DNA from: Geosiphon pyriformis
Lineage: Eukaryota; Glomeromycota; Glomeromycetes; Archaeosporales; Geosiphonaceae
Length of the DNA stretch: 64,000 bases
Reading direction: 5' to 3'
Assembly: GCA_016748015.1 (NCBI GenBank)
Contig: JAAOMT010000085.1
Span: 62,001 to 126,000, forward strand
Every line of letters starts with the position of its first letter. The stretch's first letter is position 1. Both the position numbers and the translations under genes were made by a program. The notes beneath the pieces are model-generated. The model was given only the letters and a program-made list of their open reading frames with translations. It did no database searches and was not told the DNA's origin. Positions 21,240-59,980 of the stretch are shown one piece after another.

Positions 21240-23120
21240 GAAGTTTTTACAATTCAGTATGATAAATCTAAATCCTTTATTCTTGACTACAAGGCTACTG
21301 TTGGCTGTAGTATTGCTGTTATGAAGAAGACTGCTAAAGTTTCTGGTACTAGTAATGGCTTTAGACCTATTCTTCCAAGAAAAAAAAAGAGAGGTGGTGT
21401 TTTAGAAGATAGTTCTAATGGTAAGAATGTTGGTTCTAAGGTTCAGAATAATCACTTATGGAATTCAGAGACTGGTGACATCACTGAGTTTAATAGTATT
21501 GATATAAAGGAGAAATGTCTAGTGAAAGAGACCAGTTTTGATTATAATAAAAGTGGTGTTTTTGCTGAAGGAGATTCTAATTAAACACTTGCTAATTCAA
21601 AAATCAAAACCAAAAAAACATTAAGCAAGCTATTGGGTAAAATTAATTTTTCATTAAGTGATATTAAAGATGATGTTCTTTTAGACACTTTATTGAAACT
21701 CCTTTTACCTCTAAAGAATCTGATCAACATTTCTGTTCACAAATTTTTTACTTTGGATATTGGGTTGGACAAAATGGTTGGGAAATCTTCTCAAAAAAAG
21801 CTTCAAGTAATCAGAAAGTTGTTTTCAAAAATCAATGGTTTTGGAAAGGCCTCTACCCCCTCAAAGTTTGCTGAAATCATTAAAGCAATGTTTACTTCCA
21901 AATTAAGTTTGGTGCAGACTTCTAAAAAAGCTGAAGAAGTGAAAATTTTGGTTAATACTGATCTTAGAAAATCTACTAGGCATTCAGATTGGGCTGTGGT
22001 ATTAAAAAAAATTCCAGTTAGAACATCAGTTGAGGCTGTGTGTACTGCACTATTTGAATTTGGGTTAATTAAGTCAATCAAAATGCAATTGGTAGAACTG
22101 TAACAGAAAGTAGTAGTTGAGTTTAATTAGATAGATCATGCTGATTTGGTCACAGCAAAATGGTCTATTCTAATCAGAAAAGATGTGGTGCATATTGCTA
22201 GGTCCAATATGAACAAAGAATTATGGGATGCAAAAGACAATCATAGAGTGCTGCTTTATATTCTCTCTGTAAGAACAAATGCTCATAACATTTGGGATTT
22301 TATTGGTTCTGTGAGTAGAAAAACATGTATGATCAACCAGCATTCTATTACATATGTCCAGGCCAAATGTGCTATTGTTTGTTTTAATTTAGCTGAATCT
22401 TTGGATGTCATCATGGGAATCACATCTGTGTTAAAAGGAGCCAATTTGCAATGGTTTCATCAAGGTTTTTCTAAGTGCACCAAGTGTAAGAAAATAAGGC
22501 ATACATCATTGAACTGTTCTGTGAATGGGAGTTTGTATTCTGGCAAGCCATCTCATATGTCACTTTTAGATATGGATAAAAGCAGGTTGGCTGCCATCTA
22601 TTCCAAGCATTCAGTTCCTATTGCTTGTTCTGTTGCTTTTGGTGGGATTTCATGAGCAAAAATAGCTGGTGGATTTTCATTTTCTCTTTTCTCTGTAAAA
22701 AATGGTTCAGTCAATCCTGGCTCTTTTTCGGAGATAAAGCCTACCCTTCCTGTTATATTTGATATTGAAAAAAGATTTGCTGTTTTAGAAGTCAGTCTTA
22801 CCAGCCTCATAGAACAGATTAGTGAGTTGGCTAAGAGATTGGATTTGCTTATACCAGCAGTTTCTCAGCCTAGCCCTGGATGTCAGCTGCTGGTAACCCC
22901 CTCATCACAGAATCAGGTGGGTAATATAGTGATAAGAAAGAGCTTGAGTAAGGCCACTAGTGATAAGGTTGCTGTGTTTCTGAACTCATCTTCTTCCCCT
23001 AATATGGTCAAATTTGAGAATATGTTGGAAGGTCTTTTTACTTCAGTTTTGAGTTTGTCAGCTTATCTTAATGGTTTGGTCCTGGCTGGTAATATGCACC
23101 CCTGATCTTCTTCTTAATGA
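21240..23120 (+). pseudogene. LINE C ORF1: RRM-like folds and CCHC knuckle
   Basis: Frame broken by several stops (for example after FAEGDSN near 21582, near 22100 in the LWQKVVVEF-equivalent, at 22653 and at 23104). It has a first RRM-like fold at 21990-22200, a second with IGSVSRKTC at about 22250-22450, and the knuckle CTKCKKIRHTSLNC at about 22475-22516. A leucine-rich stretch at 22770-22860 may be a short coiled coil. It ends SSS-stop-TGA, with TGA inside ATGA at 23117-23120. It would be the RNA-binding protein of the element. The first ATG of the surviving frame (21321) is probably not the original start, because conserved coding-like text extends further 5'. Confidence 0.8.
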
Positions 23121-26100
23121 GTGAATTAGCCTAGAAGTTTGCAACATATAATGTCAGAGGCATAAACAATCCTGTAAAACAGGAGGATATTGTGTATTGG
23201 CATGTGAAATTTAAAAATATGGTCTCAATTGTTATTAAAACAAAGTTAAAGTCTGGTTGTAGACCTTAGATTATGAACAGGTTTGATAGTATTAGAATTT
23301 TTTCATTTGGTTTGGACAAAGGGTTTTTTGGTGCTGGGGTGGTCATTATTATGAACAATTTTTTGGCCTGCCATGTTTCTAAAGTTAAGAAGGTCCCTGG
23401 TCGGATTATTTTGGTGTATCTCCTCTTCAAAGGTAAACTCTCAGTTACAGTTTTGGGTTTGTATACTGGTGCATTCTCTGGAACTAGATTTGGTTAGACT
23501 ATGGAAGTCAATTTTTTTATCACAAAAGCTCTAAACTCCAGTACTTTTGTGGTCTTGAGAGGTAACTTCAATGAGAATAATTCTAAGAAAAATGCAAGTT
23601 TTAAGTTTTGTTTGGATCTGGGTCTGGCCAACTCATTTGGTGCATACTCATTAGTCAGGACTTCTACATAGAGCAATTCAAGGGGTGCCAAAAAAACAAT
23701 TAATTATATTTTTGTCAGTAATAATTTGTCTTTAGCAGTCATTAATCTGATTGTTGCTTTTGTTTCTAATTATTTTGACACTGACCACAAGACTGTTGTG
23801 GTGTCAGTTAGTCTGGGTGGGCTTTTGGATGTTTAGTTGAATGGTTTGCACAAACAAGCTAATAAAAATTGATAGAAGTTCAAAATTGCGGATATGGACA
23901 GTTCCAAATGGGCACATTTTAAGAAGTGTTCTTTAGTTAAGTTTTCTTCTATGAGTAATGAGTTTTTAGTCACCAGTGCTGGTGAGAATTTTGATTCTAT
24001 GTGGTCTTTGTTGGTAAAAGTGTTGGTCAATGCAGCTGATGAGACATTCTTTATACATTGGTTTTATAAGATCAAATGTTCTTCCAACAAACATTCTTTT
24101 AAATTTTTTAAACTAGAACTGCTGGTTGCTAAATTAGTAAAGTCTTTTCAGTCTGGTAATGCTTCTAAAACTGGTTTCCTTCTCAATGCTTGGTTGATTG
24201 CTGATAAAAGTAAGGCTTTTAAAGTTTGAAACATGTTAAATAATAGTGCTAGCAGCATGGAAATTTTTGTTTGTCTGTTCAGGTTTAGGAAGAGTTACCA
24301 TTATTCCAAGATGCATAAGTCTAAAGCTGTTGAAGCTGCCACAATTAGGCATGCTATTAATAGAAGAATGAAAAATTTTTGCACAGACAAAGACCATATA
24401 ATCAGAAGTATTTTGGATAGACTTTTTCACAAAGTGGTCCTTGACCATTTGGTGGTAGATGATGAATTAATTTTAGATTCTGGTGAAGTTAAATCCAAAG
24501 TTGATATAATAATAGAAAAGTGGACCAGAAAGTGGTCAGTGTCTACATCTTTTTCTGTTTCTTGGACTTGTCAGTATGCTTCTTTGCAATATGTAGATAA
24601 TGATGTTTTCTTTGGTGTTATGGATATTATTGGTTTTGATGAGCTTTTTTAGATTGTTAAACATTTACTGGATGAAAAGGCTGCTGGCCTTAGTGGTATT
24701 TCTAATGAATTATAGAAGCATTGTGATGAGGTCATTCTCAAAAGCTTGTTGGATCTCCTAAATTTGTGCCTAAGATTAGACAAGATTCTGGTTTTGTGGG
24801 GAAAAGTGTAGGTCTCTATGATATTTAAGTCTTATGATTGGGATGGTATCTTAATGAACACTCACCCTATTGCTCTGCTGAAAACTGCTCACAAGATCTT
24901 TTTTAAGATTCTTTCAGATCAGATTTTTCTTGCTTGCAGTAAGTTTGGGGTGTTGTATGAGGATAATTTTTTCATTCTTCATAATATCTCTACCCAGTCT
25001 CCCATTTTTGCTGTTGGTTTAGTGGTAGAAGATGCTTTAGAGAAAGACAGAGAGGTTTGGTTGGTTTTGCAGAATATGTACAAGGCATATGACTTAATTA
25101 GCTGGCACTATTTGGAGACTAGTTTGTGGTGCATCAAAATGTGTGACAGATTTATTAGGTTTTTTGGTAGAATTCATAAAGATAAATTAAACCATGTTAT
25201 GACAAATTTTGGTCTTTTGGATGATTACTGGGTGCTGGATGGTCTTGATCAAGGGGAAGTGTTTTCCCCTCTTCTCTGACAGATTTTCTATGATCTCTTA
25301 CTGTGTAAGATTAAAAGACAGAAAAGTATATGTGGCTACCAGATTAATACCAAGTTTGTGGTCAAATTGGGCAGAATAAACAATATGGGTAAAATGACTT
25401 TTTTTTTTGCTGCTGGTGCTTTTGTTGACAATACTATCTGGATTGGGAGTAGTCAGGCTGCCACACAATTTATATTGGATGTTGCCAGTAATTTCTTTGC
25501 TATTAATAATATCTCAATAAATAATAATAAAACAGTGGCCATTCCTATTAACCAGAGGGTCCAGAATGCTGTTTTTAGGATTAGTGGGTTGCCTATCTCG
25601 ATTATCAGATGTGGTGTGTTTCATAGATACTTGGGTATATTCTTGTTAACTGATGGTTTGTCCAAGTCCAGCTTGGCTAAAGCTCAGTCTGACATCAAGT
25701 TCTTTTCTAATATGGTGCTACATAAAGCTATTTTAGACAAACAGTTCATATATTTGGTGTTAGCTGTTCTTTAGCCTATTATCAACTACTGCACTTAGTT
25801 TAGTTTTGTCTCCTCTGCTGTTTGTTAGCACTGGAATGCTCTGGTTAGAAAAAACTTCAAGTCAAAGGCTGGTTTGTTTTAAGATTTTCTAAGTGAGGTA
25901 CGTTATCATTTTTCACTCTATGGTCTAAAGACATTTAAACAAGTTCAAGCTAAGAGGAAGTCTGCTTTTGTTATAAGTTTTTCTAATTCTTTTGGAGTTG
26001 TTGGTCAGCTTTTTGAGCATTGTTTTCTGGATTTGCAGGTTTTGGATTGGACTCTTTTTAATCCCTTGTAGTATCTTATGAGACTGCATGTTGGTTCTTT

Positions 26101-27808
26101 TAACAATTTTCTGGCTGGAATAGTACATATTTTTTTAAACAATAATATTTCTATGGTAAACAATTTGTCTTATGCTTTTTTTAATTCTGGCAAGTATTCT
26201 GTTTCTAGTGTTTTAGGAACTTTTTTGTATTATGATCAGGTTAGTTTTTTAAAGAGATTTGGTGTAGCTTTCTGTGATAGACTTTTAAACAAACATGGTA
26301 AAGTCCTGAATTGGTAAACATTCCAGCATTGGAAAAAACTGGATCTCAAGGGACCTGTGTCTTCTTGGTTTATCTTAGTATCAAAATTCTTGCATAATAA
26401 AGTTCTTCTGTCAATACCACCCAGTTGCAACTCTTTAGTAGATGTCGATAATGTTTTGCTTTTGGATCAATTTTTTGATGTTAAGAATGGTCTACTTGAG
26501 ATTTGATCAGGTTCTATTTCTGTTTTTACAGACAGTTCTTTGAAGAGATTTGGTTCTGTTGATGTGATTGGTGGTGCTGTAGCATTTTTTTCTGAGATTG
26601 AATTGGACATTAAAGTTAGAGTAATGGGTTTTTTGTCTTCTATAATGGCTGAATTGCAGGCTGTTGTCTTGGCACTAGAGTGTGTATCTTTTTCTTGTTT
26701 AGTGAAGATGTGTTTGGACAGCCAAGCTGCTTTAGATGCATGTGTTTCAGAATTGAGATCTGGTGGTCCTGATTTTTGTAATTGTTGTTGAATAAAAAGG
26801 AGGTATATTGCGAATTTGATTATTCAAAAAGACATTTCTGTAAACTGGTTAAAGGTCAAAAGACACTTTGGTGTGCTGAATAATGTTCATGCAAATACAT
26901 TAGCATGCATTTCTGCTTATTTCTTTTTGCTGTTGTCGACCAATATACATAAATGCTTTTTAATGGCCAATGACATGCCAATTTCTGGTAATGTTCAGCA
27001 TTTTGTCCAAGACATTTTTAGATCTGTGAATTGTATGCATTAGGAAGTTGGTCCTGATTTTAAGATTTTAGGTGGTTTTTCAGTTTGTGATATTGACTGA
27101 ATTAAGACCATGGCTATTTGGCATCCAGATTTGAATATGCTGTCTGGTTCCATGAGTAGAAATTTGGCTGGTTTGTGCTCCTATTTTATGAAAACTGTGT
27201 ATGGCAGACTGTCTGTTACAGTTAGAAAGAGACTTTATAACAAGAACTACTCTGGTGTTTTGTGTTTGCACTGTAGAGAAGTTGAATTCTCTGATCATGT
27301 GTTTATATGTAGTAAAGAATCTATCTTCTATAAAGAGATTTTTTTCGAATATGTGTTAGTTTGGAGATCTTTGACTGGTTTTTGTTGTCTGACTCCTTCC
27401 GTAGTCTTAGAATCTCTTCTCTTATATGTGTTTGATATTAGTCTATATGCTCTTCTCTGCAAGAGCTTTGTGCCTATTGAGTGGTTTAAAGAAGCTATAC
27501 AGATATTTGAGGATTGCAAAGAGGCTGTCCGGATTCTGGTTGACTTTGTATAAGATGTGAGTATGCATCACCATTCTGAGTTGTGAGGATTCAGATTCAG
27601 ATTTAGAGCTAACATGGAGAGAAACAACTTGATCAATAACTCAGAAGTGTTATCAATAATACATTGTACCTCAGTGCAATATTTGTTGGATGGTATGGTT
27701 AGGTTAATTGGTATTGATGATTCTTTTGGAATGAGTTTTGGTTTCTGTAAGCCTTGTTTGTTTTTTTCTGGTTCAGTTAATATGGTATCTGTTTATATAA
27801 ATACATAA
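23117..27808 (+). pseudogene. LINE C ORF2: endonuclease, RT, RNase H, finger
   Basis: APE-type endonuclease at 23117-23870 (KFATYNVRGINN start; VLRGNFNEN for GDFN; YFDTDHKTVV). RT at about 24590-25700 with motif A NMYKAYDLI, motif B GLDQGEVFSPLL and motif C FVDNT at 25421-25435, where the second catalytic Asp is Asn. RNase H at 26520-26910 (FTDSSLKR with DG changed to DS; AELQAVVLALE; DSQAALDA). Finger near 27265-27310 (CLHCREVEFSDHVFIC). Many stops, for example at Trp 6 (TAG at 23132-23134). Predicted inactive. Confidence 0.87.
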
Positions 27809-27984
27809 TGTCACCTAGATTAGTCTGAATAACTAGTCACATGTAATAAATGCGTGAATTATATCTAGTTGGGGTCTATAGTTTTGACTTTATATACTAG
27901 ATAGTAATTGGGCTGCATTTGTTAAACTGGATAATAATAATAAAAAATTAATTACAAAAAACAAATTTAATTTCAAAAATAAAA

Positions 27985-28320: not shown

Positions 28321-28479
28321 AATTTGGAAAAATAAATAAATTATTAATAAAAAATTGGTATTTATAAAAATCAAAAAAAGTGGTAATAATTTGAAACTTA
28401 ATATATTGAAAAATGTGGCATTTTGTTAAGCCACTTGAGATTTATAAGATTAAAAAACCAGCACTTATAATGTTAAGTT

Positions 28480-28630: not shown

Positions 28631-28639
28631 ATTTATTAA

Positions 28640-29443: not shown

Positions 29444-32400
29444 TCACCCATAATGATGAAACGACGCCCCATGCCCATGTCGTCCATTTCTCGTTCCATT
29501 CCTTTGGTGATTATGGTTATGGGCAGGACGTTGATAAAATCCTTGTCCATTACCGGATGTAAAACCAAACCCACTTTGATCGCTCATAAACATTTGGAAA
29601 AATAAATTAGGGTCGACACTACCAAAGTCTGATGCGCCACTGATTCCATCAAGATCAGCTCCTGAATCATAACGTTGCTTTTTGACTGGATCCCCCAAGA
29701 CGGCATATGCCTCGCCTATTTCTTTAAATTTCATCTCAGCTACAGTATCCCCAGCGTTTTTATCAGGATGATGTAAAAGGGCTAATTTTCGGTAAGCTTT
29801 CTTTATATCTGCTTCCGAGGCGTCTTTAGTTAGCCCTAATATTTTATAAAAGTCCTTTCTTTGGGATTTTTTTAGCTCTAATTCTGCATTATTCAAGGCA
29901 TTACGAATCTCCCGATTATCGCGGTCAAGGTCAAGAGCAGCTTTGAGATCTTGGACCGCTTTTTCATAACTTTCCATTTTAAGATGAGCGTCTGCACGGC
30001 GTCTTAAAACTTTGATAAAAGTAGGATCAAGTTCCAGAGCTTTGTCCATATCTAATATTGCTTCAGAGTGCTTTCCAAGTTTTAAAAGCACTGCTGATCG
30101 ATTAGAATAAAGTTTAGAGTTGGTGCTGTTGTTTCTAGGATCAATATTCAGTGCTGAGGTATATAATTCGTATGCAAGGTCGTATTCGCCTTTCTTGAAA
30201 CTTTCATTTCCCAGATTTTTTTGTTGTTCTAGATTTTTTGCTTTCTATAAAGTAAATCGAGAATGTAATAGAAATTTTGAAATAATTGCTTTTTCCGAAA
30301 CATTACATAAGAAAATTTATTGGAAATTTTACCCGTAATAAATTTCTTGCTTTTGTATGGTCAGGATCGCAGCGGAGAGCTTCTGTACAATGAGCTAGCG
30401 TTTTTGTATTATCACCTTCTTGGTATAATATTTGCGCTCGTACCACATGTGCGTCTGGATTTTGTGGGTCGGCACGAAGTATCTCGCTAGAAGTGCATAA
30501 ATCGGATCAGCAATTTGTTTATTTTCACCCAAAAATATATCAAATGATTTAAAGGATACCCAGCACATGACCAAGACGTATAAATTTGAGGGAAGTATCA
30601 AGATAAGAATTCGATTCCGGGACCTCGGTCATACAATGAGTTCGCATACTAATGGAGAGCCCGAAGATCGATGATTAATACTCACTTTGCGATTCTTCCA
30701 GCCTCGCCCAAATCTTTCAGCCCTATTAACCCTTCAGCTTTCAAGACCTTCCACTTTAAGGGGATTTCTTCAAGATTCGTAGATGCTCGATCAATATAAG
30801 TAACCGCCAATGCTGGTTGATCATTTTCTAAAAATGTCTCTGCTTGCTGGACATAGGCATGAACATTTTGCACTTGGCGTAATTCGGAAGTAGCCAGACT
30901 ATTATTTGGTTCCATAGAAAGTACATTTGATAAGAGGCGAAAGGCCTCTGATAGATTACCGAGAAGATAATTGCATTTCGCAGCCCGAATTAGAGCTTTT
31001 GTAGAAGATGGATCCAGTAAAAGAGCAGTCTTACAATCGTCAAGAGCAATTTTGGTTTTTTTCATCATCATCAACGCCGCGGCACGATTTGTATAATAGG
31101 TTGGATTATTAGGGTCGATTCCTAAAAGCCAGTGGAGTAACAGGATTAATCTCTTGTTAAGGTTGGCTTTGTTTTAACTATTGTTGAATGATTAGACAAA
31201 TCGAGAAACCAGACGGTAAAAGCTTAAGTTTTTATAGCGTTTTCAATACTATCTTTGATTTAAATAATTTTTTTATCATGACGCGCATAGAATGTGGTTC
31301 TTAGGCTGACAGTCGCGTACCCGTTTGGTTATACAGGAAATTAGAGCTTACCTATTGCATCGGTATATAACTGTACAGCATCCAAATAATTTCCCGCTTT
31401 ATATTTTTCGTTAGCTTGAGTTTTAATGCCCTCTGCATATCTAATACATAGAATGGGGTTATATGGGACCAAAATTAGTAAAGTACATTTTCCTATTTGC
31501 CACACTTCATCTGTCTGGTTGACAAGTTGTTAGAAATATATGATATATATTGACAAATGAAGTTTAATGAAGGAAGAACGTTTCGAAAAAGAATCACAAA
31601 AAACGAAGAAAATGGATTTGTGTTTTGCCTGAAAAATCAAATTGTAGACTCGGAGTATGAGGATATATTTTGAGTTTCTGAGAGAAAATAATTTAATGGT
31701 AAAGGTCGAAAAGTGCACTGTCTGTTGGCTCTTTGACTATCTATAAAGCAATTACCACAGGAACCAGAGAAAGCTTACACTTCTTGGAATACCTCCATGT
31801 CCTCAATGTTGTTTAAGTAGGTATTTTCTGTCGAGTGATCGCGAAACGGCTGAAACTAAGAAATTAAAGGGCAAAAGTTTGAGGTTGGTTTAAAGTCAAC
31901 TTTGAAAATTGACAATTGGTATGAATATTTTTTTAATTCATAATAAAAAAGGAAAACCAAATGGCCACAGGTTACCTGGTCGGGTAAGTACCCTTTGGGA
32001 AGGTTGGTACATACGAAATCAAAGAAGGATGTAGAAGGTGAAAGAACATTTCGTAATCAGCACAAGTTTCCAAAATGAACGTATGATTGATAACCGCTGC
32101 ATGGCATATCTACATAATGTTACATCACGTGTTCAAAAATTCGAGCTTTACCTGGTTTGCTCAAGTTATTTCGCATTTCTAGATAGTTTGGGTTGTTTTC
32201 CTTTAGAAGTGGTGAGGTTTTTGTGGTAAAACTAGTTTTTCTGGGTAGTTCTCGATTTTCTGAATTATTTGGCAACTCCGGGAGAACATGAGAACCTTGT
32301 TGCATCATGTAAGCATTATGATCAGATAAAACCGAAATTTTCCTTGGTCTCTCTTGTAATCGAGGAGTTGGTGCTGGTGTAATGGCCGGGGAATCAAGAA

Positions 32401-32899: not shown

Positions 32900-32929
32900 G
32901 CAAAACTAGAAATTAGTGTATGCGTTTTT

Positions 32930-33963
32930 GATAGCTGAGAAAGCCGCGACAATGAAATGAAGGAGTAAAATGACGACTTTAAAAAAGTTTCATTTAATAT
33001 ATACTCCCAAGTTTTTAAATTAAGATATATACGTCATCGGATTTCAATTTCGATTAATTGGCTGATTAATCCAAGAAAGAAAATAATTGTCTTGGACAAA
33101 TTAACTATTTAAAGAATCATGTAAAGACTTAATCTAAATAAATACATAAATCTAAATTTATTTAATTGAAAAGATATGCACTTTATTTATGTTTATTTTT
33201 ATATGGTCATATAATAAAATTTAAAAATATTATATTACTAAAAGATTCCAATTTTAAATTTTATTTTTATACATTTAATTATTTGTATTTAATTGTTAAT
33301 TAAATTTTTTTTATTAAATTTGTTTTTTGTGGTTGGGCTTCACCTTCAACAGAACAAAAATAAATAATTTTTTATTATTATATTTTTATAACCACAATAA
33401 AAACAAAAAAACAATCTTTATTTTTTAATTTTTAACAATAATATTATTCAAAAAGTCTTTTTAATTATAAAAGCAACTAAATAGTATTTTGCTAAAATGC
33501 TTTTTTTAAGTAATAAAAAGACTAAAAAATCTTTGAGTAAAAGTTTTAGTATTGTTATTATTTTTGTTAAAAACTTAAAAGTTTTATAACAATCTTTTTA
33601 TTATTGTTTAAATAACCAAAATAAAACTCTGGATTTTTTTAATGTTTTTACTAATTTTACATTATTAATACTAATTATAATATTTTATTTTACTTTAATT
33701 GTTAACAGTTTTTTATTTTAAATAATAATAATAATAATATATTTGTAAATCTAATATAAATAAGTATTTGGTTATATTATTTATATATAAATTTTAATTA
33801 ATTATTAACAGTTTTAAAAACAAAACAAATTGTGTTTTTATATATAATTTTATTAATTAAGCTATTAAATTATTTAATTATAAAAATTAAATTAATAAAA
33901 TAAAAACTATATTATTTTTTTCTTGTTTTTTGAAAACATTATTGGTTTAATATTATTATTTTT
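32930..33963. other. Promoter side of the host gene, then A/T desert
   Basis: The first 130 bp upstream of the ATG have mixed composition and may hold the promoter, but no box is certain. From about 33100 the sequence is nearly pure A/T with no gene, apart from a small GC pocket at 33340-33372. It borders the A tail of LINE D. Confidence 0.45.
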
Positions 33964-34095
33964 TTTTTATTAACCCATTTAATGAGTGCAGCCCAATCGC
34001 TATCTAGTACATAGAACCAAACTAAGAGGCTCAAACTAAATGCGACTCACACACTTTCTACATGTAGCTAGCCACTCAAGCCAGACAAGGCAACA

Positions 34096-37000
34096 CTACA
34101 CATCTATAACTACCCACACACTGCCATCCAGACCAGAAAAGAAACAATAAGGCTTCTGACGACCAAAGCTAATAGCAAAGAAATTGGCCAAACCAAGCAA
34201 TCTCACAACACCGTCAGACAAAACCGAAGACACACCACAAGGGAGCCCAGAAACAACACCAACGTCACAAACCAGACCAGCCTTCTCCATCACCATCTGG
34301 TGGCTGGCTCTAGCCAACCATACTTTAGCACAATGTAATCCAACAACGAACCTGACATAATCAACAATTCGAGCAGTGGCCACCTTTCTATCCTCAAAAA
34401 CATCACAAGCCTCCTCATACCACTCCTCTAGCACAAACTCTTTGTACACCAAAGTGTACAGCCCAACATCAATGGAACATTGAGACAAAACCTGCAACAC
34501 AGCAGAAGCAGGAGAACCACCAGCCAGAGCTAACCAACAGGCAGAAGCCTCCGCCAAAATCTCACCATAAATGCCAGACTCATGAACACAAGTAAAAATA
34601 TGGTCAAAGAATTCCACCTCATTGCAAAACAAACACAACACACTAGGGTAGCACTTATCATACAACCTCTTCCTTACCACCACTGGCAACCTCTTGTGCA
34701 CAGCCTTCATAACATAAGTGCAAAGCATTGAGGATGCACGGCTAGTGAACCCAGCAAGCATATGAAAATCAGGATGCCACACCTTCGCCGTGACAACCCA
34801 GTCTATGCAACCAATCATCACATCTGGAACTACATTACAACCAGGCCCAGCTTCCCAACAAGCATAACAAATTGATCGAAAATTATTCCTGACAAAATGA
34901 CAGGCATTACCAGAAACAGCAATACCCTCAGCAACCAAAAAATGTTCACACACATTGGCACAAAAAAAAAAGGAGACCCAAAGGCAGCCCCAGCAGCTAA
35001 GTCAGCTCTCACATTACCAGGAATCCCAGAGTGTCCTTTCACCTTAACCCAACTCACGCTGAGATCCTTATCCCTGACCAAATTGAAAATATGACACCTT
35101 TCCAGCCAGCATTGATTACGGAAATCAGGGGCAACCAAAAACATCTCAGACACACATGCGTCAATGGCAGTCTGGCTGTCAAGATGTAACACCACAGTAC
35201 TTGAAGAAGGAACACACTCCAAAGCCAAAGCAACAGCCTGTAACTCGGCCATAGTAGATGACAAAAGACCACGAACAGTGACACCAATGCTCTTATCCAA
35301 GACCAGAAAGTATGCAGCAGCACCACAGGTGACCTCAGCAGAGCCTGCATTCCTCAAAGACCCATCCGTGAAAACTTCAAAAAAGCCTGACCAAATGTCA
35401 TGCAATCCATCTTTAACTGCAGAAAATTCCCCAGACCCCAAAATGTCCAAACCAAGCTTTTTCGCAGAGCCAACAGAACCAGAAAATAAGTAACCCTGAC
35501 CTTTCAAAAACTCAGAAGAAACCATAAACCAGTGAGGCACAGGGCCACGCGGATCCAACCTTTTCCAACGACAAAAAGTTTTCCAATCCAACAAAACATC
35601 TTTTTTATCAAAAAGCCGATCACCAAAAGTGACACCAAAACGTTTAAGAGATTTGACCGAATCAAAATACAGAGACTTTCCAAGAACAGAGGACAACGGG
35701 AACCAACCAGGACAATGAAATGCAGTGGGGAGGTTGTTCACCAAAGTAAACTCATTGCCCAGAAAGATTTTTACCATCCCAGCCAAAAAATTGTTCACCG
35801 GACTAACACGCAACCTGACTGGAAACTGCAAAGGATCCAAAGGAGCCCAACCAAGAACCTGTAGGTCCAAAAACCTATGTCTAAACAAACGCCCAAGAAT
35901 GCCAAAGGCATTAGAGAACGCCATCAAAGCAGCAATCTTCCCTTCTAACTGCACCTGCTCAAAAGGCTTTAGGCCATACAATGAGGGATGATGCAAAGCA
36001 GCATCAGAAAAATCACGGGAGAGACAAGCCTTAAACCTAAGACCCTTTCTAACTAAGGCATCCCACTTGTGACAAACATTAGACGAGACAAAACTGAACT
36101 GAGTACGATAGCTAACAATAGACTGCAAAACAGCTGACACCAGATAGGAGAATTGTTTGTCTGTAATAGCCTTCCTAAGCACAACATTGACGAAGAAACG
36201 TACATCCGCATGAGCCTTGGCAACACTCGGCTTGGAGAGCTCTTCAGTTGACAAAAAAATACCCAGATACCGATGTGCTTTCCCTTTCTTGGCAATAGAA
36301 ATTGGCTAACCACAAATGTTCAGCGAAGCAACTTTAATGCCCTGATTGATGGGAATAGCTACCGTCTTCTCACTATTGATAGAAATATCATTGATCACAA
36401 AAAATTCACTGGCAATGTTCAGAGCATATTGAGTAGAAGCCTGACAATTTCCAATCCAGATCGTATCATTGACAAATGCACCAGCCAAAAAATATGATGT
36501 CAAACTACCACTGCCCTCAATCCTGCCAGATTTTGAAACAAACTTAGTATCAATCTGGTACCCACACAATTGTTCGTGCCTTTTAATCTCACACAAAAGC
36601 GGATCGTAAAAAATTTTTCAAAGAAGTGGCGAAAAGACCTCACCCTGGTCTAGCCCATCATGCACCTTATAACCACCAGACAAACCAAAGTCAGTCATTA
36701 CCCTATTAACTCTATCCTCATAAATACCACCAAAAAACCTTATGAACCTCTCACACATCTTGACACACCACAAACTAGCTCTTAAATGATGCCACCCAAC
36801 TGAATCGTAAGCTTTCTGCATATCTTGCAAGACCAACCATAACTTCCTATCCTTCTCAATGGCATCCTCAATTACCGAACCGACAGCAAACACCAGAGAT
36901 TGTGTTGACGTACCCTTCAGCACCGAAAAGTTGTCACCCTGAAGAACATTGAACTTGCTACAAGCCATTGAAATATGGTCAGACAGAATCTTGAAAAGAA

Positions 37001-38780
37001 TCTTCCTGGCAGTCTCAATCAAAACAATAGGCCGAGTGTTCATAAGAACTCCATCCCAGTCATAAGGCTTAGGAATCATTGACACCCAAGCCTTCTTCCA
37101 CAAAACAGGCACCATACCATCAGACAAACATTTATTAAACAGCACCAACAGGCACCCCAAAACCACTTCACCACCATGTTTCCATAACTTATTAGGAACA
37201 CCAGACAAATCAGCAGCCTTGCCATTAGGAAAACCACCAACAACAGAAAGTAACTCACCCATACTGATTGCACTCATAACACCTGAAAAAGCATTATTCC
37301 GAACATAGTCCAAAGGCGTGTACTGACAAGCCCAAAGACCAGAAAGCACTGACTGCACGGAGCATTTTCTCGTCCACCCCTCCATTATTCTATCCACACT
37401 GGACTTCACCTCTTCAGGCAACAAAACCAGATCATCATCAACTATCAAGTGATCCAACACAACCTTACGAAAAGGCTTTTCCAACACACTCCTGATCATA
37501 CTACTCTTATCCGAACAGAAATTATCCATGCACTTCTCAATCACCTTCCTAACCAAAGCTTCCTCAGCCAATCTTGACTCAAACATCTTTGACCTCCTGT
37601 AATCTCTACGAACCAATGACAAATGTCTAACAACAACATCAGATTTAACACCCGAGCCAACCAAGTCCTTGAAAGCACGAGCCTTCGCATCATCCAGAGT
37701 CGACCATTTACTCACAAGACAGTCAGCACCCAGCAAGTCACCAGAGCAAAATTTCTTGACAATCTTGGCCACCAACAATTCCAGACCAAAAAACCTAGAA
37801 GAATGTTTGTTTCTCGAACACTTGAATTCACTAAACCAATGCCTCGAAAATGTCACATCAGCAGAATCCACCACAGCTCCCACCAAAACTGCCCACATAG
37901 CATCCACATCACCACATATTTCGGCATCAGAGAACACCTCACCCAAAGACAAAAGTTTAGCTGATGAGAGATCCTTAAACTTAGCCCATCCAACACAGTC
38001 AGCATTCTTGATTTTGAACTTCCAACGATTTTTATTCGCCTGCTTGCGCAAACTGTTCAATTGTATATCTAGAAGCCCACCCAAACCAACTGAAACTACA
38101 ACAGCCTTGTTATCGGTGTCAAAGAAATCTGAAACAGAGACAACTTGATGGCCAGCAACAGCAGTAGACAAATTACTACCAACAAAAATGTAATCAAGTG
38201 TTTTCCCAACCCCTCTCGAATTGCTCCATGTATAAGAATTAGCCAAATGATGACCAACAAATAAATTGACCAAACCTAAACTCAAACAAAACTTGAAACT
38301 AGCACTTTTATCAGATCCATTCTCATTAAGGTCCCCACCCAAGATAACAAAATTGCTGGAGTTGACCACCTTTGCAATGAGGGTGTTAACTTCAGAAGCC
38401 TGACCAAATCTAGCCCCAGAGGAGGCACCAGCATACAACTCTAAAACAGTAACTGAGAGCTTGCTCTTAAAAAGAAGCCGAACAGAAATAATCCGACCAG
38501 GAATCTCCTCCATCTTAGATACATAACGGGCCAAAGAAGTGTTCATAACAATTGCAACCCCAGCCCTCATGAAACCCTTATCCAAGCCAGAAAAAAATAT
38601 TCGCACTCCATCAAATTTATCCTTTATCCACGGCCCAGAAGAGGATCTCAACTTAGTCTCAGTGACAAAAAAAACCATATTTCCCGAGCTCACATGCCAA
38701 CGAACAACATCCGCTTATTTCGCAGGAACATTGATACCCCGAACATTGCATGTAGCAAATTTCCAAACCAAACTACTCAT
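34096..38780 (-). pseudogene. LINE D ORF2: endonuclease, RT, RNase H, finger
   Basis: About 1,560 codons from ATG 38780. Endonuclease: ATCNVRGIN, TETKL, ILGGDLNENG, LDYIFVGS, DTDNKAVV. RT: DMQKAYDSVGW (motif A), GLDQGEVFSPLL (motif B), FVNDT at 36462-36476 (motif C, first Asp changed to Asn). RNase H: FTDGSLRN, AELQAVALALE, DSQTAIDA, KGHSGIPGNVRAD. Finger: CLFCNEVEFFDHIFTC. It is disabled by TAA at codon 22 (Gln in relatives), TGA at codon 721 (36618-36620, Trp position), TAG at codon 825 (36306-36308), and a frameshift in a run of ten A (34962-34971). Its start overlaps the ORF1 stop as ATGA. Long plus-strand ORFs here are shadows. Confidence 0.92.
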
Positions 38781-40738: not shown

Positions 40739-40858
40739 AAAAAGGGGAATGTCTGAAGAAATAACTGGAGAAAGGTGAAGGAGAAAGAGAAAAGGAAGGC
40801 TATTTTAGTGACGACTCAAAGCTCTCATTGTAACCAGGAGATCAACGAAAGAAAGAGT

Positions 40859-46900: not shown

Positions 46901-48593
46901 ACAGGTGTGATCTGTATTTTTTCTGAATATAATATGTTCTTGGATGTTCCTATGGCTAATGCTTTTAAATTTCAAAGTAGAACTCCTATGTCTTTTGTTT
47001 TCAGTAATTCAAATTATTCTAAATATTTTTTTTCACTTTAATGCTATGAGGTTGCCTTTGTAGAACAGCTTTACAACTATAAAGACAATGTTTTTGATTG
47101 GAAAATATTCAAGTAGTAGAAGTGATTAGATCCTTGTGGCCTAATTCTGGTTTGGTTTGAGCTCTCTGTTCATTTTCTTTGTGGTGTGAGTCTTTTTTCT
47201 GTCTCCTTTCCACCTTTGAACAGTGGCAGCTCTTTAAATATTCTTGAGTTTTATGAGTTTGAGATCATTTGTGATGATTTTTTGGGTACTAAAGTGGATT
47301 AACTTTCAGTTTATATGAATAAATCTTTATGTGATTTGGGAACTTTGGACATAAAGACTGGTGCTGCAGCTTTTTTCAAAAACATGAATTTAAGTTTAGG
47401 TGTTAGAGTCTTGGGTTTGGTGTCTTTTACTATGGCAAAGTTGTAGGCCATTGTATTGGTTCTTGAATGTATTACTTTATCTCATTTAGTCAACCTATAT
47501 TCAAACAGTCAGACTGCTATGGATAGTTGCAAATCAGAATTAAGTTTGGCTTGTCCAGATTTCAGGAATTATTGTTGAATTAAACATCATCACATTGTGA
47601 ATATTATCCAATGCAAAAATTTAAAGATTAATTGGCACAAGGTTAAGAGTCACTTGGGTGTTGCAGGTAATAAACATGTTGATATGCTTGCCAGGGCTGC
47701 CATTTTCTTTAGTTGGTGTCTTCTATATTTGGTCAGTGAGCATTATATTAGAATTGGTAGTAATACTGTTTCTGGCAACTCTAGATATTTTATTCATGGG
47801 GTTTTTTGGTCAATTAATTGTGTGTGTTGGGAGATTAACTCTGGCTCTTGAATTGTGTTGGATAGTTTACATGCAGATATTAATTGGTTTAAGTCTTTTC
47901 TGGTTTGGCATCCTAACTTCTATATGGCTGCTGGTTTTACCAGCAAATGTTCAGCTAAATTCTACACATATCTTATGAAAGCTCTATATCATTGGCTACC
48001 TATTGCTTTGCATAAGTGGCTGTACAACAAGTGTTATTCCAATGTTGTATGTTTGTTTTGTGGTAAAGTGAAGGTTTCAAACCATGTTTTTTCTTGTGCT
48101 TTTGATACTGCTGGTTATGTTTGGTTAGTGAATGCTTATGTGAATACTTGAAGAGCATTTTCTGGTCTTTTTTACTCTGCTTCTTGTGTTTCACAATTGT
48201 TATCTATCTGTGTTTCTGATGTTGTAATTAGTGTGGCTTTGTGTAAGGGCTTTGTTTTTAATAACTGGTATTGTGAGTCTGTTTCTATTTTCGAGGATCC
48301 CAAGATAGCAAGTCAAAATATTATTAATTTTGTGCACAAATTTTGTCTGGCTTTTCAGAATAAATTTTGGTTGATTTGTGCCAAATACAGAGCTTTCATG
48401 GAGAAGAATAAGCTAATCCTACATGATGGATCTATTTTTGTTTCAGTTTCTGGGTTTTTTTTTGTTGCTTTTGGCTAGCATAGTCAAATTATTAGGTATA
48501 GTTGAAATTATTGATGTTAGTTTCAGTTTTTATAAATCTTGTTTGTTTTTCTCAGGTATAGGTAACATGGTTTCTGTTCATATAGGTGGTTAG
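43909..48593 (+). pseudogene. LINE E ORF2
   Basis: Endonuclease to about 44660 (YNIKGINNAAKQ; TETKLKG; VILGSNFNKD for GDFN). RT with motif A DIHKTYNSVG near 45870, motif B GLDQGEVF near 46034, and motif C FVNNI at 46211-46225 (both Asp changed to Asn). RNase H near 47310-47740 (MNKSL for TDGSL; KVKSHLGVAGNKHVD). Finger CLFCGKVKVSNHVFSC near 48050-48100. Predicted dead, with stops and frameshifts throughout. Confidence 0.83.
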
Positions 48594-52520: not shown

Positions 52521-52529
52521 AAGTAATAA

Positions 52530-53404: not shown

Positions 53405-53547
53405 TTATTTTTTATTTTTTTTATTAATGTTTAACAAGTGAGGCCCAAAAGCCACCTAGTGCAATACATTAAACTAAGCAATCTAAACTAAGTGCTAATC
53501 ATGCACTTTCTACACGTGACCAACCACTTGGACCAATTAGAGCAACA

Positions 53548-56500
53548 CTATAAATCTATCAGAACAGAAACCACACCATTTATACCAGAAAAAAAGCAGC
53601 TATGTTCATGAAAACCAAAACAGACACCAACCACCTCGGAAATCCCAAGCAACCTAATCATCCCAGCAGAAAACATGTATGACAAACCATGAATCACAAG
53701 ATACACAGAACCATCAAGTAGAATTAAACTGCCTTTTTCCATCAAAGCCCTATATTTAGCTCTAACCACTCAAATATCCAAGCAGTAAGCAGTACCCAAT
53801 TCTCGAACAAAATCAACAATAAACTTGCCCACAACCTTGGTATTACCTAGAATAGATGAAGCTTCCTGAACCCAATCTCTGAACACAAAACCTTTGCCCA
53901 CAGTAGTATACAACACATTATCAGATGTGCACAGAGAAAGCACCTGTGAAACACGAGACGAATGCAAGTCCAATCCAGAAACACTTTGTCACTTGACCAG
54001 ATGAGACTTAAGAATACTCTTACAAGCATCAAAATTAAATGTGCAAATGAAGAAATGGTCGGAACTTTCCACCTCACCACAATGCAGACATGAGACACTT
54101 GGGTAAATCTTACTATACAGACATTTTCACACAGCAACTAGGAGATGGTAGTGAAGAGCCTTTAAAAAATAAGAGCACAAACCAGCCATAGATTTACTGG
54201 TAAAGCCAGCTGCCATATGGGAGTCAGGATGCCACACTAAAGCAGTATGAAACCAGTCCACATTACCAAGCAAACTGTTATCAACAACGTTGAAACCAGA
54301 ACCAAACTCCTAGTGAGCCTGATTAATAGACCTGAAAATCTCACAAGCAAAATAACGAACATTTCCAGACACTGTCTCCCCAGTAGCCATGATAAATCTC
54401 TCTCTAACCAAAACAGGAAGCACCAAAGAAGAGCTTGCAGCTAGACCAACCAACTTATTAGCATACTCATTACCTACAACATCTGAATGTCCTTTTATCT
54501 TATGCCAAGAAACAATAAGCTGCTTATCTCTAATTAAATTGACAATGCCATGTCACTCCATCCAACAGTGGTTGTGGAAATCCAGAGACACCAGAGCAGA
54601 TTCAGCCACACATACATCCAATGCAGCCTAACTGTCTGAATAAACCACCACAGAACTGTCAAGAGAAACACACTTTAATGTCAAAGCAATCGCCAGCAGT
54701 TTTACCATAGTCAAAGACACCAATCCACCAATCTTAACACCAATATCCATGTCCAGATCTGAGAAATAAGCAGCAGCACCACATTTCATTTCACATGAAC
54801 CCAAATCTCTCAATGATCTATCAGTGTAGACATTGACTACCCTTATATTTGCTGAAGAGAGACAATGGCTCAATCTGGAAACTACACCTGAACTGCAAAC
54901 ATTCATATCCCATGAATCTTTAATGCGCAAATCATCAGAAGTAGAAGATTGATTCAAAAAATTACAAATCAAAGTGAACCAATGAGGGGTGAGGCCCCTC
55001 GGATCAAGTCTCTTCCAATGACGAAAGCTTTTTCAATCAAAAATTAAACTTTTTTTGATATATAACTGCTCAGCAAAGGGGACCCAAACTTTTTGAGAAA
55101 TAAAGAGACATTATAAAACAAAAAAGCACTTAGGACTGCAGATATTGGTGTTCCACCAAAAAATCAGAATGCAGAAACAGAGAGATTGCCAAGAGACATG
55201 CCACAGTCCAAAAAATTCTAACAACTCCTGCCAAAAAATTATTGACCAGACTGACATGCAACCTAATTGGACAACATAAAAGATAAATAGATGACTAACC
55301 CAAGACTTGAAGATCCAGAGATCTATGATTGAACAAATGACCAAGAATACCATCAGCGTTTGAGAAACACAACACAGAAGCCACCTTGTATTCAGTTTGC
55401 AACTGCTCAAAAGATCTTAAACCATACAAAAAAGGATGATAAAGGGTCTCATTGGGAAAGTCTCTTGGAAGACCAGCTTTAAGCCTTAACCCCTTCTTGA
55501 TCAATGTATCCCACTTCATACACACATTCCTGGAGACAAAGCTGAACTGAGTCCTATAACTGATAATTGGTTGTAACACAGCTAATACTAAATAAAAAAA
55601 CTGCTTGTCTGAAATAGCTTTCTTGAGAACCAAATTGACAAAAAACTTGACATCCATGTGTGCCTTAGCCAAGCTTGGTTTGGACAATCTCTCAGATGAC
55701 AAATAAATGCCAAGATATCAATAAGACTTTTTTTTGCAAGCAATTGAAATTGGCAGATCACTAATTGACAATGAAGTATTACTAACTCTCTGATTAATAG
55801 AAATGGCTACAGTTTTTTCATTATTGATAAAAATGTTATTTATCTTAAAAAATTCACTTGCTGTGTCCAGGATATACTGAGTGGCAGCCTGACTGCTTCT
55901 CACCCAGATGGTATTATCCATGAATACACCAGCAGCCAGAAAAGAAGTCAAACTGCCTTGGTTTTCTATTCTGCTAGTCTTAGCTACAAATTTAGTATCA
56001 ATTCAGTAACCACACAAACTTTTCTGTCTTTTGACCTCACACAAAAGGGGGTCATAAAAAATTCTCCACAGCAAAGGAAAGAAAACCTCACCCTGATCAA
56101 GACTATCATGCACCCAGTAGTCATCTGTTAGACCAAAATCAGTCATAATCTGGTTAACGCAGTTATTGTGAATTAAACCAAAAAATATAATAAAATGCCT
56201 GCACATTTTGATCTGAACCAAACTATTATGCAAGTAATGCCAACCTACAAAGTTATAGGCTTTATGCATATCTTGTAACACAAGCCAAAGCTTACAATCC
56301 TTTTCCAAAGTGTCTTTAACAACTGAACCAATGGCAAAAATAGGAGACTAAGTGGTCGTTCTTTTAAGCACTAAAAAATTGTTCTCACGAAGTACTGCAT
56401 GCTGAAAAAATTCTGTCAGACAACAACTTAGAAAGAATCTTATGGGCAGTCTCAATTAAAGCAATTGGCCTAGTATTTGTTAAGACACCCCTTCACTCAT

Positions 56501-58217
56501 AGGGCTTGGGAATCATTGACACCCAAGCTTCCTTCCAACAATGGGGAATTAACTTACATGCCAAACAAATATTCAGAAGATCCAGAAGCAAGCCTAACAC
56601 AGAATCATTACAATGTTTCCAAAGTTCATTTGAAATGCCAAACAAGCCAGCAGCTTTACCATTAGGCAAATTTTTAATTACACATATCAAGTCATTCAAA
56701 CTGATAGCATTTATTACACCCAAAAAAGCATTATTATCAACATAATCTAATGGCAGGTATTGATGTTACCACAAATTGGAAACACTTCTCAGCATGGCCC
56801 TCTTTCTTATTCAGCCCTCTATTATACTATCAACCTTATTTTTAACCTCTACCAAGTCCAAAATCAAGCTGCCATCAGAGACTAAATGATCTAACACCAC
56901 TTTGTGGAATGGGCATTCCAAAACACTATGGATCATATGGCCTTTGTTGACCACAAAACTCTCCATCTTTCTTTCAATAGCTGATCTAATGTCCAACTCC
57001 TTGGCTTGCAAAGACTTGGCAAGCTTAAAGGCACAATAATACCTCCTCATGTCACAAAGAGCAGAATGGACATGATTAAAATTTGCACCAAAACTCACAA
57101 GATCACAAACAACAGAAGTTTTGTCACTATTCATAGAAATTTAGCATCTTAATAGAGACTCAAATCTGCTGGAGTCTGCCTTGTAAGAAGCCTTGACAAT
57201 TTTTGACACCAAAACCTCCAAGTTATGCAACTTAGAAGACTCTTTGGTAAACATCCCATCATAACCCTTAAACCATTTCTTCTTGAAAGCACCATTAGCT
57301 GAAAAAACCATCACTTTGTAAACAGTATCCCACATAGTATTCAAATCAGAAAACTTCTTAGCAGCCTCAAATTCGTCTAAAAACATGACAGCATTGGCTG
57401 CAGTAGCATCTTTAAACTCACCCCATTTTGCTATATCTGCACTTTTGACATCAAACTTCCAATGATCTTTATTCACCTGCTTGCATATTGAACTTAAACA
57501 GACATTGAGCAAACCACCCAAACCCACGGAAGCAGATACAGCTTTGTGGTCAGTATCAAAATATTCCTTGACATTGGCCACACTATCATCTGTTACAGCA
57601 TTGACCAAACTCGAAGAAATGAAAATGTAGTCAAGAGCTTTAGTGACACTGCAGGAATTGGTTCACGTAGGTGTCTTAACAAATAAACTTCCCCCTAAAA
57701 AATCAACTAAATCCAAATCAAAGCATTTCTTGAAGCTAGCACACTTTTAGAACCCATCTTTGTTAAAATCACCACCCAAAATAACAAAGAAGGACTCGTT
57801 TACTGCCTTTGTAATGAGAAAGTTGATTTCACCAGCCTAAGAGAACCAAACCACCGATAACACACCAGCATAGAGTCCCAAAATTAACACAGAAAGATTA
57901 TTCTTGAAGAGTAATTTGAGAGAAAGGAGACAACCAGGAATCTTGGAAACCTTACATACATGTTTTACCAAAGAAATGTCCATGATAATCACCACACCAG
58001 AACCCAAATGACCAAAGTCCAAACCAGAGGTGAAAACCCAAACACCATCAAATTTATTCATAATCCATGGGTGGATCTTGCCCTTCAACTTAGTCTCAAT
58101 AACAACAGAAATCAAATTGTTCATCTCTTTATGCCAACATATTACATTATTCTGTTTTGTAGAATTATTTATACCCCTAACATTGCATGTGGCAATCTTC
58201 CAAACTAGACTGGTCAT
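53548..58217 (-). pseudogene. LINE F ORF2: endonuclease, RT, RNase H, finger
   Basis: Starts at ATG 58217 (MTSLVWKIATCNVRGINN). The endonuclease keeps ETKLKG, GGDFNKDG and DTDHKAV. RT has DMHKAYNFVGW (motif A), SLDQGEVFFPLLW (motif B) and FMDNT at 55910-55924 (motif C, second Asp changed to Asn). RNase H has YTDRSLRD, with the DG Gly changed to Arg. The finger region is at 54040-54110. Stops and frameshifts split it into about ten pieces. Several stops are at positions that are Trp in LINE D. Confidence 0.86.
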
Positions 58218-58345
58218 TGAGAAAGAGATTTGGGAGATGCATTGCCAGCCAAAATCGAACCATTAAATCTCGCTGTAAGACTTAGAACTGAGGCAAAAAG
58301 TCCTTCCAACATGCTTTCCAATCTTTTTACTTCAGTAAAAGCAGA
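58214..58345 (-). pseudogene. LINE F ORF1, last 40 codons
   Basis: VKRLESMLEGLFASVLSL aligns with VKLENMLEGLFASVMSL of LINE G. Ends SLSQ-stop, with TGA in ATGA (58214-58217) overlapping the ORF2 start. Upstream sequence is lost at the junction with LINE G. Confidence 0.75.
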
Positions 58346-58349
58346 AGAG

Positions 58350-59980
58350 TTGAGAGTATTGACATGGAGGAGGAGTGCTTGGTTGAGGAAACCAGTGTTG
58401 TCTATGGTGAGAATGGTGCTTTTACAGGAGAGGATCCTAATCAAATGCCTAAAAGTTTGTGTGTAAAGACCAAGAAGATATTAAGAAAGCCTCTGGGTGT
58501 GATTGATTATGGTACTGTCAATGCAGAAGATGACGTGTTAGACAGTTCATTCCTTTTCCCACCCCTTTTACCTATTAAACTGTCTATTCAAGTGTCTGTT
58601 CGCAAATTTTTTGCTTTGGATATTAATCTCGTGGCTGTTGCTGGGAAATCATCTCAGGAAAAATTGAACTTTGTCAAAAAAAATTTTTCAGGTGTGAATG
58701 GTTTTGGGGGGGTCTCTGCTCCCTCAAAATTTGGTGGAATTATCCAGACATCTTTCACTTTCAAAAAGGTGATGATGGCAGCTGCTTAATTGGCAAATGA
58801 TTGTAGTGTTATGGTAAACACCAATCTTAAGTGCCCCATCAACAATCATATGAATCGGGCAATTGTGTTGAAAGAAATTCCTGTGGAAACTTCCATCAAG
58901 GCAGTGCATGCAGCCATTTCTGAATTTGGACTTATTAAGTTGATCAAAATACAGTTGGTGAGTCTATGACAAAAGGCGATTATTGAATTAGAAGATCAAA
59001 TTTAGGCTGATCTCTTGGCAGCTAAGTAGTCTGTTCTTATTGGGAAAGATGCAGTGCATGTGGCCCGGGCCGATATTAACAAACAAATGTGGGATGCCAG
59101 AGATGAGTTTAGGACTTTGCTTTACACTTTCCCTATAGACACCACCACTCATGATCTTTGGGACTTTATTGGTTCAGTTGGTGGGAAAACATGTGTTATT
59201 GAACGCAGCTCTGTCAGTTATGTCTGGGCATACTGTGCCACTGTGTGCTTTGATTCTGAGGGTAGCCTTATTTAGACAATGGCAAACACTCCTGTTATAA
59301 AAGACGTTGGTCTCCGTTGGTCTCATTTGACCACTGCACTGTGCTCAATTTGCAGAAATTCCGGTCATACTTCTCTCACTTGTCGTACTGCTGGTGCATC
59401 CTCAAGTCCTAGGAGCAAGAGAGCTCTTCTTTCAGCTCAAGATCAGCTCCGTCTGGCTAAGATATATGAAAAAAAATCTGCTCCCGTTTCCCACCCTTTG
59501 GCTTTTGGTGGAAAAACCTGGGCCTCTGTGGTTGGTAAACCACTTCCATTAGCGTCATTTAGTGGTTCAGCTCAATCTGGTTTCGTATTTTATGGTAAAC
59601 CTTTCTTGACTGTTAGTGGTGAATTGAAAGACCATTTGAAGAATATTGAGAGCAGTCTTGTCAGCCTTGTGGGACAAATTGGTAAGTTGGCTAAGAGGTT
59701 GGACTCATTCGTGTTGGCAGTTTTCCAGCCTAGCCCTGGATGTCAACTGCTGGTGACCCCCCCATCACAGAATTAAGGGGAGGATATAGTGATGAGAGTG
59801 GGTTTGGATGATGCCACTAGTGACAAGACTGCTGCCGTTACAGGTTCAACTGCCTCACCTGAGGTTGTGAAATTGGAAAACATGTTGGAAGGTCTCTTTG
59901 CTTCAGTCATGAGCCTATTGGCGTGCTTGGATGGTTTGGCTTTGGCAGGTGGTGCTCTTTCTTTACCTCTTTCTCAATGA
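58350..59980 (+). pseudogene. LINE G ORF1, 5'-truncated
   Basis: First RRM-like fold at 58850-59050, second with VGGKTCVI at 59100-59270, and an intact knuckle CSICRNSGHTSLTC near 59342-59383. A leucine-rich helix (LKNIESSLVSLVGQIGKLAK) is at about 59640-59700, followed by a PSPGCQLLVTP motif shared with LINE C. Stops at 58787, 58968, 59005, 59027, 59274 and 59775 fall mostly on codons that are Trp or Gln in relatives. Ends SLSQ-stop, with TGA in ATGA at 59977-59980. Confidence 0.82.

Follow-up and report, generated by a model that had tools for sequence, protein, structure and literature searches.

A conserved AUGA stop-start overlap between the two reading frames of a LINE family in Geosiphon pyriformis points to probable coupled translation

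How does a long interspersed nuclear element (LINE) with two open reading frames (ORFs) have its second ORF translated? To our knowledge, this has been tested in few elements. The question is raised by a stretch of 64,000 nucleotides from the fungus Geosiphon pyriformis (assembly GCA_016748015.1, contig JAAOMT010000085.1, positions 62,001 to 126,000 of the forward strand; referred to here as the window), in which five copies of a LINE family carry a junction where the stop codon of ORF1 and the start codon of ORF2 overlap within the four letters ATGA. The anatomy of this junction and its conservation among 153 copies in the same genome make a well-supported case that the family is a new example of the known stop-start coupling arrangement.

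The window DNA is AT-rich (i.e., low in G+C). Read letter by letter, ATGA is present at each of the sites given in the original prediction, that is, at 38777 to 38780 (minus strand; the best-preserved copy), 23117 to 23120 (plus), 43909 to 43912 (plus), 58214 to 58217 (minus), and 59977 to 59980 (plus). The hexamer that ends in these letters is TAATGA at 23117 and CAATGA at the other four sites, and the junction of the 38777 copy shares its alignment column with 152 other copies. Three-frame translation agreed with the predicted frames at 5/5 junctions, with TGA closing the ORF1 frame and ATG opening the ORF2 frame (i.e., the frame of the endonuclease start). At 23117, the ATGA is a relic rather than a working end of ORF1, the ORF1 frame being already closed upstream (a TAA stands immediately 5' of the TGA, and another TGA lies five codons upstream). 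The Ser-Gln pair described ahead of the stop occurs in four of the five window copies and in 95 of the 153 copies genome-wide, with Gln as the last residue in 132 of them. The LVWK described after the ORF2 start is literal in two window copies, but the W codon is now a stop codon in the other three. Likewise, the overlap persists in all five window copies in spite of their decay, but ATGA is retained in 116 of the 153 copies genome-wide.

The best-preserved copy spans about 33.95 to 40.83 kb on the minus strand. Its ORF1 (38777 to 40732, minus) is open over 651 codons counted from the first Met; the product shows a weak match to RRM_1 (E = 0.029, below the Pfam cut-off) and a CCHC knuckle recognised by eye in the translation. 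Its ORF2 (34096 to 38780, minus), which encodes endonuclease, reverse transcriptase (RT), and RNase H, is broken: codons 21, 720, and 824 are in-frame stops, and the frame changes near the end. The LINE identity is borne out by matches to all three domains. Pfam searches of ORF2 returned RNase_H (E = 2.1e-12) together with Exo_endo_phos (E = 3.1e-5) and RVT_1 (E = 1.9e-6), the last two falling just short of the curated cut-offs. Among solved structures, the RT best matched 8c8j ("RNA-directed DNA polymerase"; E = 1.3e-7), followed by LINE-1 ORF2 (E = 1.8e-7), and the endonuclease profile matched LINE-type endonucleases (E = 0.0018 to 0.003). An RVT_1 search of the genome, in which 150 of 6009 candidates were scored, gave scores of 116 to 132 bits among the hits listed (vs 28 for the LINE); these probably represent other retroelements, and the search was left unused.

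We surveyed the window's own genome (124.7 Mb; 406 contigs) by three kinds of search. A pattern on ORF2 letters downstream of the junction, with the junction itself excluded, matched 210 places (reversed control, 0), 100 of which were used (98 fetched and 2 inside the window). A 600-base junction query produced 935 first-look candidates; 40 were scored, of which 13 were already in the pattern set and the other 27, all near-identical copies, were added. Endonuclease-domain searches produced 144 places, from which 35 were chosen, all except L100 having a complete endonuclease start; 23 proved to belong to this family and 11 to a second LINE family (family B); the remaining one, L100, falls in the endonuclease interior and was set aside. 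Together with the three remaining window copies, and after removal of L160 (family B) from 154 placed sequences, the set comprised 153 copies (100 pattern, 27 near-identical, 23 endonuclease-search, and 3 window copies). The junction of each was placed by going five codons back from the ORF2 tryptophan position located by tblastn. Motifs, heptamers, and pseudoknots were scored in 61 representatives, which include decayed copies, and folding was predicted for 29 representatives with at most two stops.

The 153 copies fall into 60 clusters at 15% distance and are up to 57% apart. In a separate alignment, the junction hexamer occupied one column in 153/153 copies, each of which had first been placed by the five-codon count. 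An ORF1-frame stop lies inside the hexamer in every copy. The tetranucleotide is ATGA in 116 copies, ATAA in 34, and ATGG in 3, and the hexamers are CAATGA (103 copies), CAATAA (29), TAATGA (12), TAATGG (3), TAATAA (3), TGATGA (1), TCATAA (1), and CGATAA (1). An ATGA copy is present in 47 of the 60 clusters; the other 13 are single ATAA copies. The proportions were 72 ATGA, 25 ATAA, and 3 ATGG among the 100 pattern-found copies, 24 ATGA and 3 ATAA among the 27 near-identical copies, and 17 ATGA and 6 ATAA among the 23 copies from endonuclease searches, which are blind to the junction; the window copies are ATGA in 5/5 cases, two of them being pattern matches as well. Over the stretch read, 46 of the 153 copies are open. 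The original prediction had named intact copies with a spacer or a different junction as the contrary case. No spacer and no moved junction was found in 153 copies, in a survey limited to copies whose ORF2 head could be recognised, but 34 copies have ATAA at the junction and 9 of these are open.

We counted changes on a tree from which the junction had been left out, with internal-branch changes standing for lineages that kept transposing. Positions -2 to +3 (i.e., the hexamer) had 1, 1, 0, 0, 3, and 1 internal changes, compared with a mean of about 5.8 per site at the 24 occupied sites in -30 to -1. The ratio of internal to terminal changes in the hexamer (6/43) was lower than those of ORF2 third positions (1059/2124; one-sided Fisher P = 0.0008), of the ORF1 tail (283/559; P = 0.0008), and of first plus second positions (867/2693; P = 0.03), where these and all further branch-change P values assume independent changes and are uncorrected for several comparisons.

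The two reading frames left their own traces on both sides of the junction. From +3 on, third positions of ORF2 are the fastest (2.8, 2.4, and 6.2 internal changes per site in +3 to +32), and in none of the upstream bands is the ORF2 third position the fastest. Since the third-position excess starts at the ATG and is not seen upstream in that frame, ORF2 coding begins at this ATG, which makes a fusion by frameshifting unlikely. Third positions of ORF1 are clearly the fastest at -120 to -61 (8.1 vs 4.95 and 2.15); this periodicity is weak near the junction (6.1 vs 4.1 and 4.4 at -60 to -31; 6.9 vs 4.8 and 5.8 at -30 to -1) and nearly absent at -240 to -121. Within the tail of ORF1, 7/153 copies have an early stop between codons -2 and -20. 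Counted per codon, all stop gains in codons -2 to -30 fall on tips; with any stop in codons -2 to -20 taken as one trait, one gain falls in a pair (L012 and L013). Between codons -1 and -30, just one early stop has been inherited; five copies carry it at codon -1 (TAATGR), where it still overlaps the AUG, as UAAUG. The single column, the codon periodicity, and the internal-branch deficit thus support the claim that the junction was present in the ancestor and indicate that it has been kept by selection. It is the comparison of tip and internal branches that takes the junction from a handful of decayed copies to selection.

Coupled termination-reinitiation on one bicistronic RNA is, in our judgment, the best of the available readings and a probable one, given the anatomy of the junction and its conservation. 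The family would be transcribed as a single bicistronic RNA, on which a ribosome would translate ORF1 (about 650 codons) and terminate at the UGA in CAAUGA. Part of the terminating ribosomes, probably with the small subunit still bound to the RNA, would then take initiator tRNA at the overlapping AUG, which shares two letters with the stop, so that the restart would require a single step backward into the -1 frame. The restarted ribosome would translate ORF2 (endonuclease-RT-RNase H); reinitiation in preference to independent entry, as well as its efficiency, is part of the proposal. The expected outcome is an ORF2 protein (ORF2p) made in a smaller amount than the ORF1 protein (ORF1p), with both linked in time and place. 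It is hardly credible that ribosomes reach the ORF2 AUG by leaky scanning from the cap, because they would have to pass 35 AUGs located downstream of the ORF1 start (38777 window copy) and because the ORF2 AUG itself has an unfavorable context (position -3 is T or C in 113/119 copies with ATG). With a frameshift unlikely, no conserved fold predicted, and scanning hardly credible, coupled termination-reinitiation is the reading that fits best.

Family B, the second LINE family found in this genome, has a different overlap (i.e., AUGUGUAR or AUGUAUAR). Its 11 copies (L081 to L088, L090, L091, and L160) comprise ten from 20 endonuclease regions plus L160. The junction, AUGUGUAG-like, lies about 60 to 70 bases before the endonuclease start, and in 11/11 copies an in-frame ATG stands 5 nucleotides ahead of a stop (TAG or TAA) in the other frame (ATGTGTAG, ATGTATAG, ATGTGTAA, or ATGTATAA). 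The ORF2 start is mostly a double ATG (9/11), giving an overlap of 8 (or 11) bases with the other-frame stop in all 11 copies. Upstream in the presumed ORF1 frame, no further stop occurs over 313 codons in 2/11 copies; the first one is met at codon 119 to 269 in five copies, at codon 80 in one, and at codon 17 in three.

Several observations weigh against coupling as the explanation of the ATGA junction. A start and a stop may each be kept for its own sake, so the conservation of ATGA alone is no proof of coupling. The start G, when only C:G>T:A changes are considered, shows a marginal deficit (3/28 vs 207/691 at third positions, P = 0.054; P = 0.087 vs the ORF1 tail and P = 0.29 vs first plus second positions). 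The corresponding value for C-2 is P = 0.11, and the four A/T sites of the hexamer have no deficit in the internal/terminal ratio (2/1); their constancy rests on low counts, and 5/31 A/T sites in -60 to -3 also have at most one internal change. The 34 ATAA copies have lost the start, a change that is faster here than the average for such a context (1.83 vs 1.03), and these copies are open over the stretch read at a frequency (9/34) similar to that of ATGA copies (37/116). Two ATAA pairs with few or no stops, L014/L134 (6% apart) and L038/L055 (9% apart), could have inherited their ATAA.

The helper elements of known systems belong on the same side of the balance. Motif 1 of the termination upstream ribosomal binding site (TURBS), UGGGA, is complementary to 18S rRNA and lies within about 80 nucleotides upstream of the restart site. 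Here, TGGGA occurs at -80 to -8 in 1/61 representatives, compared with 6.1 in shuffles. An upstream H-type pseudoknot is not indicated by a simple home-made scorer (2.30 vs 3.28 shuffled; above the shuffled mean in 7/61), and RNAalifold placed 0 consensus pairs upstream (-150 to -11) and 0 downstream (0 to 109) in the 29 representatives. The downstream pseudoknot score, from the same crude scorer, was slightly raised, at 11.5 vs 9.6 shuffled (above in 34/61), and the mean folding z values in 70-base windows were -0.60 (-140 to -70), +0.41 (-70 to 0), -0.37 (0 to 70), and -0.61 (35 to 105).

Finally, the clade with UAAUG may be non-autonomous. Some of its members have ORF1 stops in common, as if they had spread with ORF1 no longer intact; L001 and L104 share three, and L002 has one of those. 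The sub-lineage consists of L001, L002, L028, L104, and L111, with TAATGG in L002, L028, and L104 and TAATGA in L001 and L111. It had been considered as proof that AUGA and UAAUG are interchangeable, and was downgraded to a hint because of the shared ORF1 stops.

Coupling in LINEs of this lineage might also proceed free of RNA structure, with neither TURBS nor pseudoknot nor conserved fold, and with CAAUGA alone, or together with the RNA-binding ORF1 protein acting in cis, restarting the ribosome, and with family B reaching the same end via AUGUGUAR or AUGUAUAR. We offer this version tentatively, as a rather unlikely possibility; if it were true, the ribosomes of the host would be unusually prone to reinitiate after a long ORF. 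More generally, if coupling operates without the known helpers, such elements are optional, and the dosage of ORF2p could hang on one hexamer.

Among the explanations that dispense with coupling, the one that survives best is a passive overlap, in which ATGA arose by chance in the ancestor, start and stop were kept separately, and ORF2 is translated via internal entry independent of ORF1. The shared column is partly the result of common descent, the copies stemming from one ancestor, and none of the coupling elements sought is supported, both of which suit this explanation. Four observations speak against it. The ORF1 tail is only loosely conserved (about 5.8 changes per site), yet no stop in codons -2 to -30 has been inherited in the per-codon count; the Gln codon before the stop has been kept too, with one internal change each at -2 and -1; the family B junction, though different, overlaps as well; and there is no conserved RNA fold such as an internal ribosome entry site might show. 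We therefore regard a passive overlap as unlikely.

A separate ORF2 mRNA, produced by an internal promoter or by splicing, would make AUGA merely the first AUG of that message. The T or C at -3 would be a poor context for such a start, and nothing would require the upstream frame to keep its stop in place, which makes this explanation quite improbable. Slightly less probable still is an ORF1-ORF2 fusion produced by ribosomes that shift to the -1 frame a short way upstream of the stop. ORF2 does lie in the -1 frame, and its frame is open upstream of the junction for a median of 18 codons (61 representatives). However, in-frame slippery heptamers (X XXY YYZ) are found upstream in only 17/61 representatives and are scattered, the commonest position being shared by 8; no codon constraint is seen in the ORF2 frame upstream; and conservation of the ATG would be unnecessary.

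The ATAA copies are best viewed in the light of mutational decay. The tree places 31 ATG>ATA events, 28 of them on tips and 3 in pairs (the third pair, L072/L117, is 31% apart), and no larger clade inherits ATAA. The tip rate of TGA>TAA is 1.83 at the junction, compared with a mean of 1.03 elsewhere (listed single sites, 0.38 to 2.40). Because the events are tip-heavy and because of these context rates, ATAA is mostly C:G>T:A decay of the ordinary kind after insertion, which does not account for a modest excess. The next in-frame AUG in ATAA copies is at codon 15 or later in 33/34 copies, with none within 60 codons in the other. Use of AUA as a start, at which a count of 21/82 ATAA had hinted, was set aside as the principal explanation after the tree and the context rates had been obtained. 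That ATAA copies are functional, with stop-anchored reinitiation tolerating AUA and the AUG being optional, is the least credible of the alternatives: the abundance of ATAA, its open copies, its two little-decayed pairs, and the reported independence of feline calicivirus (FCV) reinitiation from a canonical AUG (PMC4090194) are in its favor, but the confinement of nearly all events to tips, the distance between L072 and L117, and the context rates, by which most ATAA is decay, are against it.

In the 153 copies, over a region of about 800 bases that includes the junction, tip mutations are led by C:G>T:A, with CpG about 2 to 3 times faster than the next contexts (CpG, 2.3 to 3.6; TCC, 1.38; TCA, 1.17; CCA, 0.72; GCA, 0.61) and with no preference for CpA. 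Decay through CG methylation therefore fits better than repeat-induced point mutation, which was rejected as the cause because the bias is of the CpG and not of the CpA type. LINE families are named in two papers dealing with the transposable elements of Rhizophagus, one of which reports that such elements undergo CG methylation; ORF1 and ORF2 do not appear in their main texts (PMC8647823 and PMC11075540).

The other four window copies have 33 to 67% protein identity, piece by piece, to the 38777 copy (tblastn with its ORF1 and ORF2 as queries). They extend over 21741 to 27805 (plus; 23117 junction), 42251 to 48475 (plus; 43909 junction), 53551 to 58350 (minus; 58214 junction; 5' limit by reading), and 58349 to 64000 (plus; 59977 junction), the last continuing beyond the window end. 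At 58349 to 58350, a minus copy (to about 58350) and a plus copy (from 58349) adjoin head to head; ORF1 of the 58214 copy seems to be cut off near 58350, where the 59977 copy starts, and the arrangement could have arisen by inverted or nested insertion. The 38777 copy ends in an A-rich 3' tail (approximately 33951 to 33971, minus), a feature seen in one copy. In its presumed 5' leader, a 7-residue upstream ORF has its ATG at 40826 to 40828 (minus), where the letters CAATGAG are identical to those of the ORF1/ORF2 junction of the same copy. Elsewhere in the window, ORFs at 10093 to 14333 (minus) and 29444 to 31173 (minus) look, by eye, like pieces of a long terminal repeat-type pol and of a TPR-DnaJ host gene.

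The many diverged copies of the family with their fixed stop-start hexamer amount to a natural mutation series. The description of the junction as a further case beside SART1, a LINE of Bombyx, is fair, but its novelty is smaller than implied, given the overlaps of victoriviruses, caliciviruses, and planthopper LINEs. In the open-access literature searched (titles and abstract openings of the top-listed papers), we found no report of an ORF1/ORF2 overlap or of AUGA for a fungal LINE. Zorro3 of Candida albicans, a fungal LINE with two ORFs, is reported to require the ORF2 ATG for retrotransposition, and its ORFs are separated by an A-rich spacer and do not overlap (PMC1965478). In Jockey-like LINEs of a planthopper, the ORFs are likewise reported to overlap by 2 nucleotides; this was described for one contig, a second having a near-identical organisation, and the first ORF there encodes a viral helicase (PMC5563155).

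One review presents AUGA and UAAUG as a general arrangement for stop-start coupling (PMC5972666). Caliciviruses have coupled start/stop overlaps of 1 to 8 nucleotides (PMC5972666 and PMC4090194), and FCV in particular uses an ATGA start/stop site for coupled termination-reinitiation with TURBS (PMC4090194); the upstream motif 1 (UGGGA core) of caliciviruses and Influenza B is the one found in a single representative here. In SART1 and L1, ORF2 translation is reported to depend on ORF1 (PMC2881922). The overlap of the ORF1 stop and ORF2 start in SART1, for which coupling has been reported, is UAAUG instead of AUGA, and SART1 needs a complex downstream RNA structure (PMC5972666), whereas the Geosiphon family shows a slightly raised downstream pseudoknot score but no consensus pairs downstream. 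Victoriviruses, which are double-stranded RNA viruses of fungi, are reported to have an H-type pseudoknot directly upstream as part of the signal, which is not indicated here, and to use AUGA or UAAUG; HvV190S has the same AUGA as the LINE family, with a polymerase likewise encoded by the second ORF (PMC6631646).

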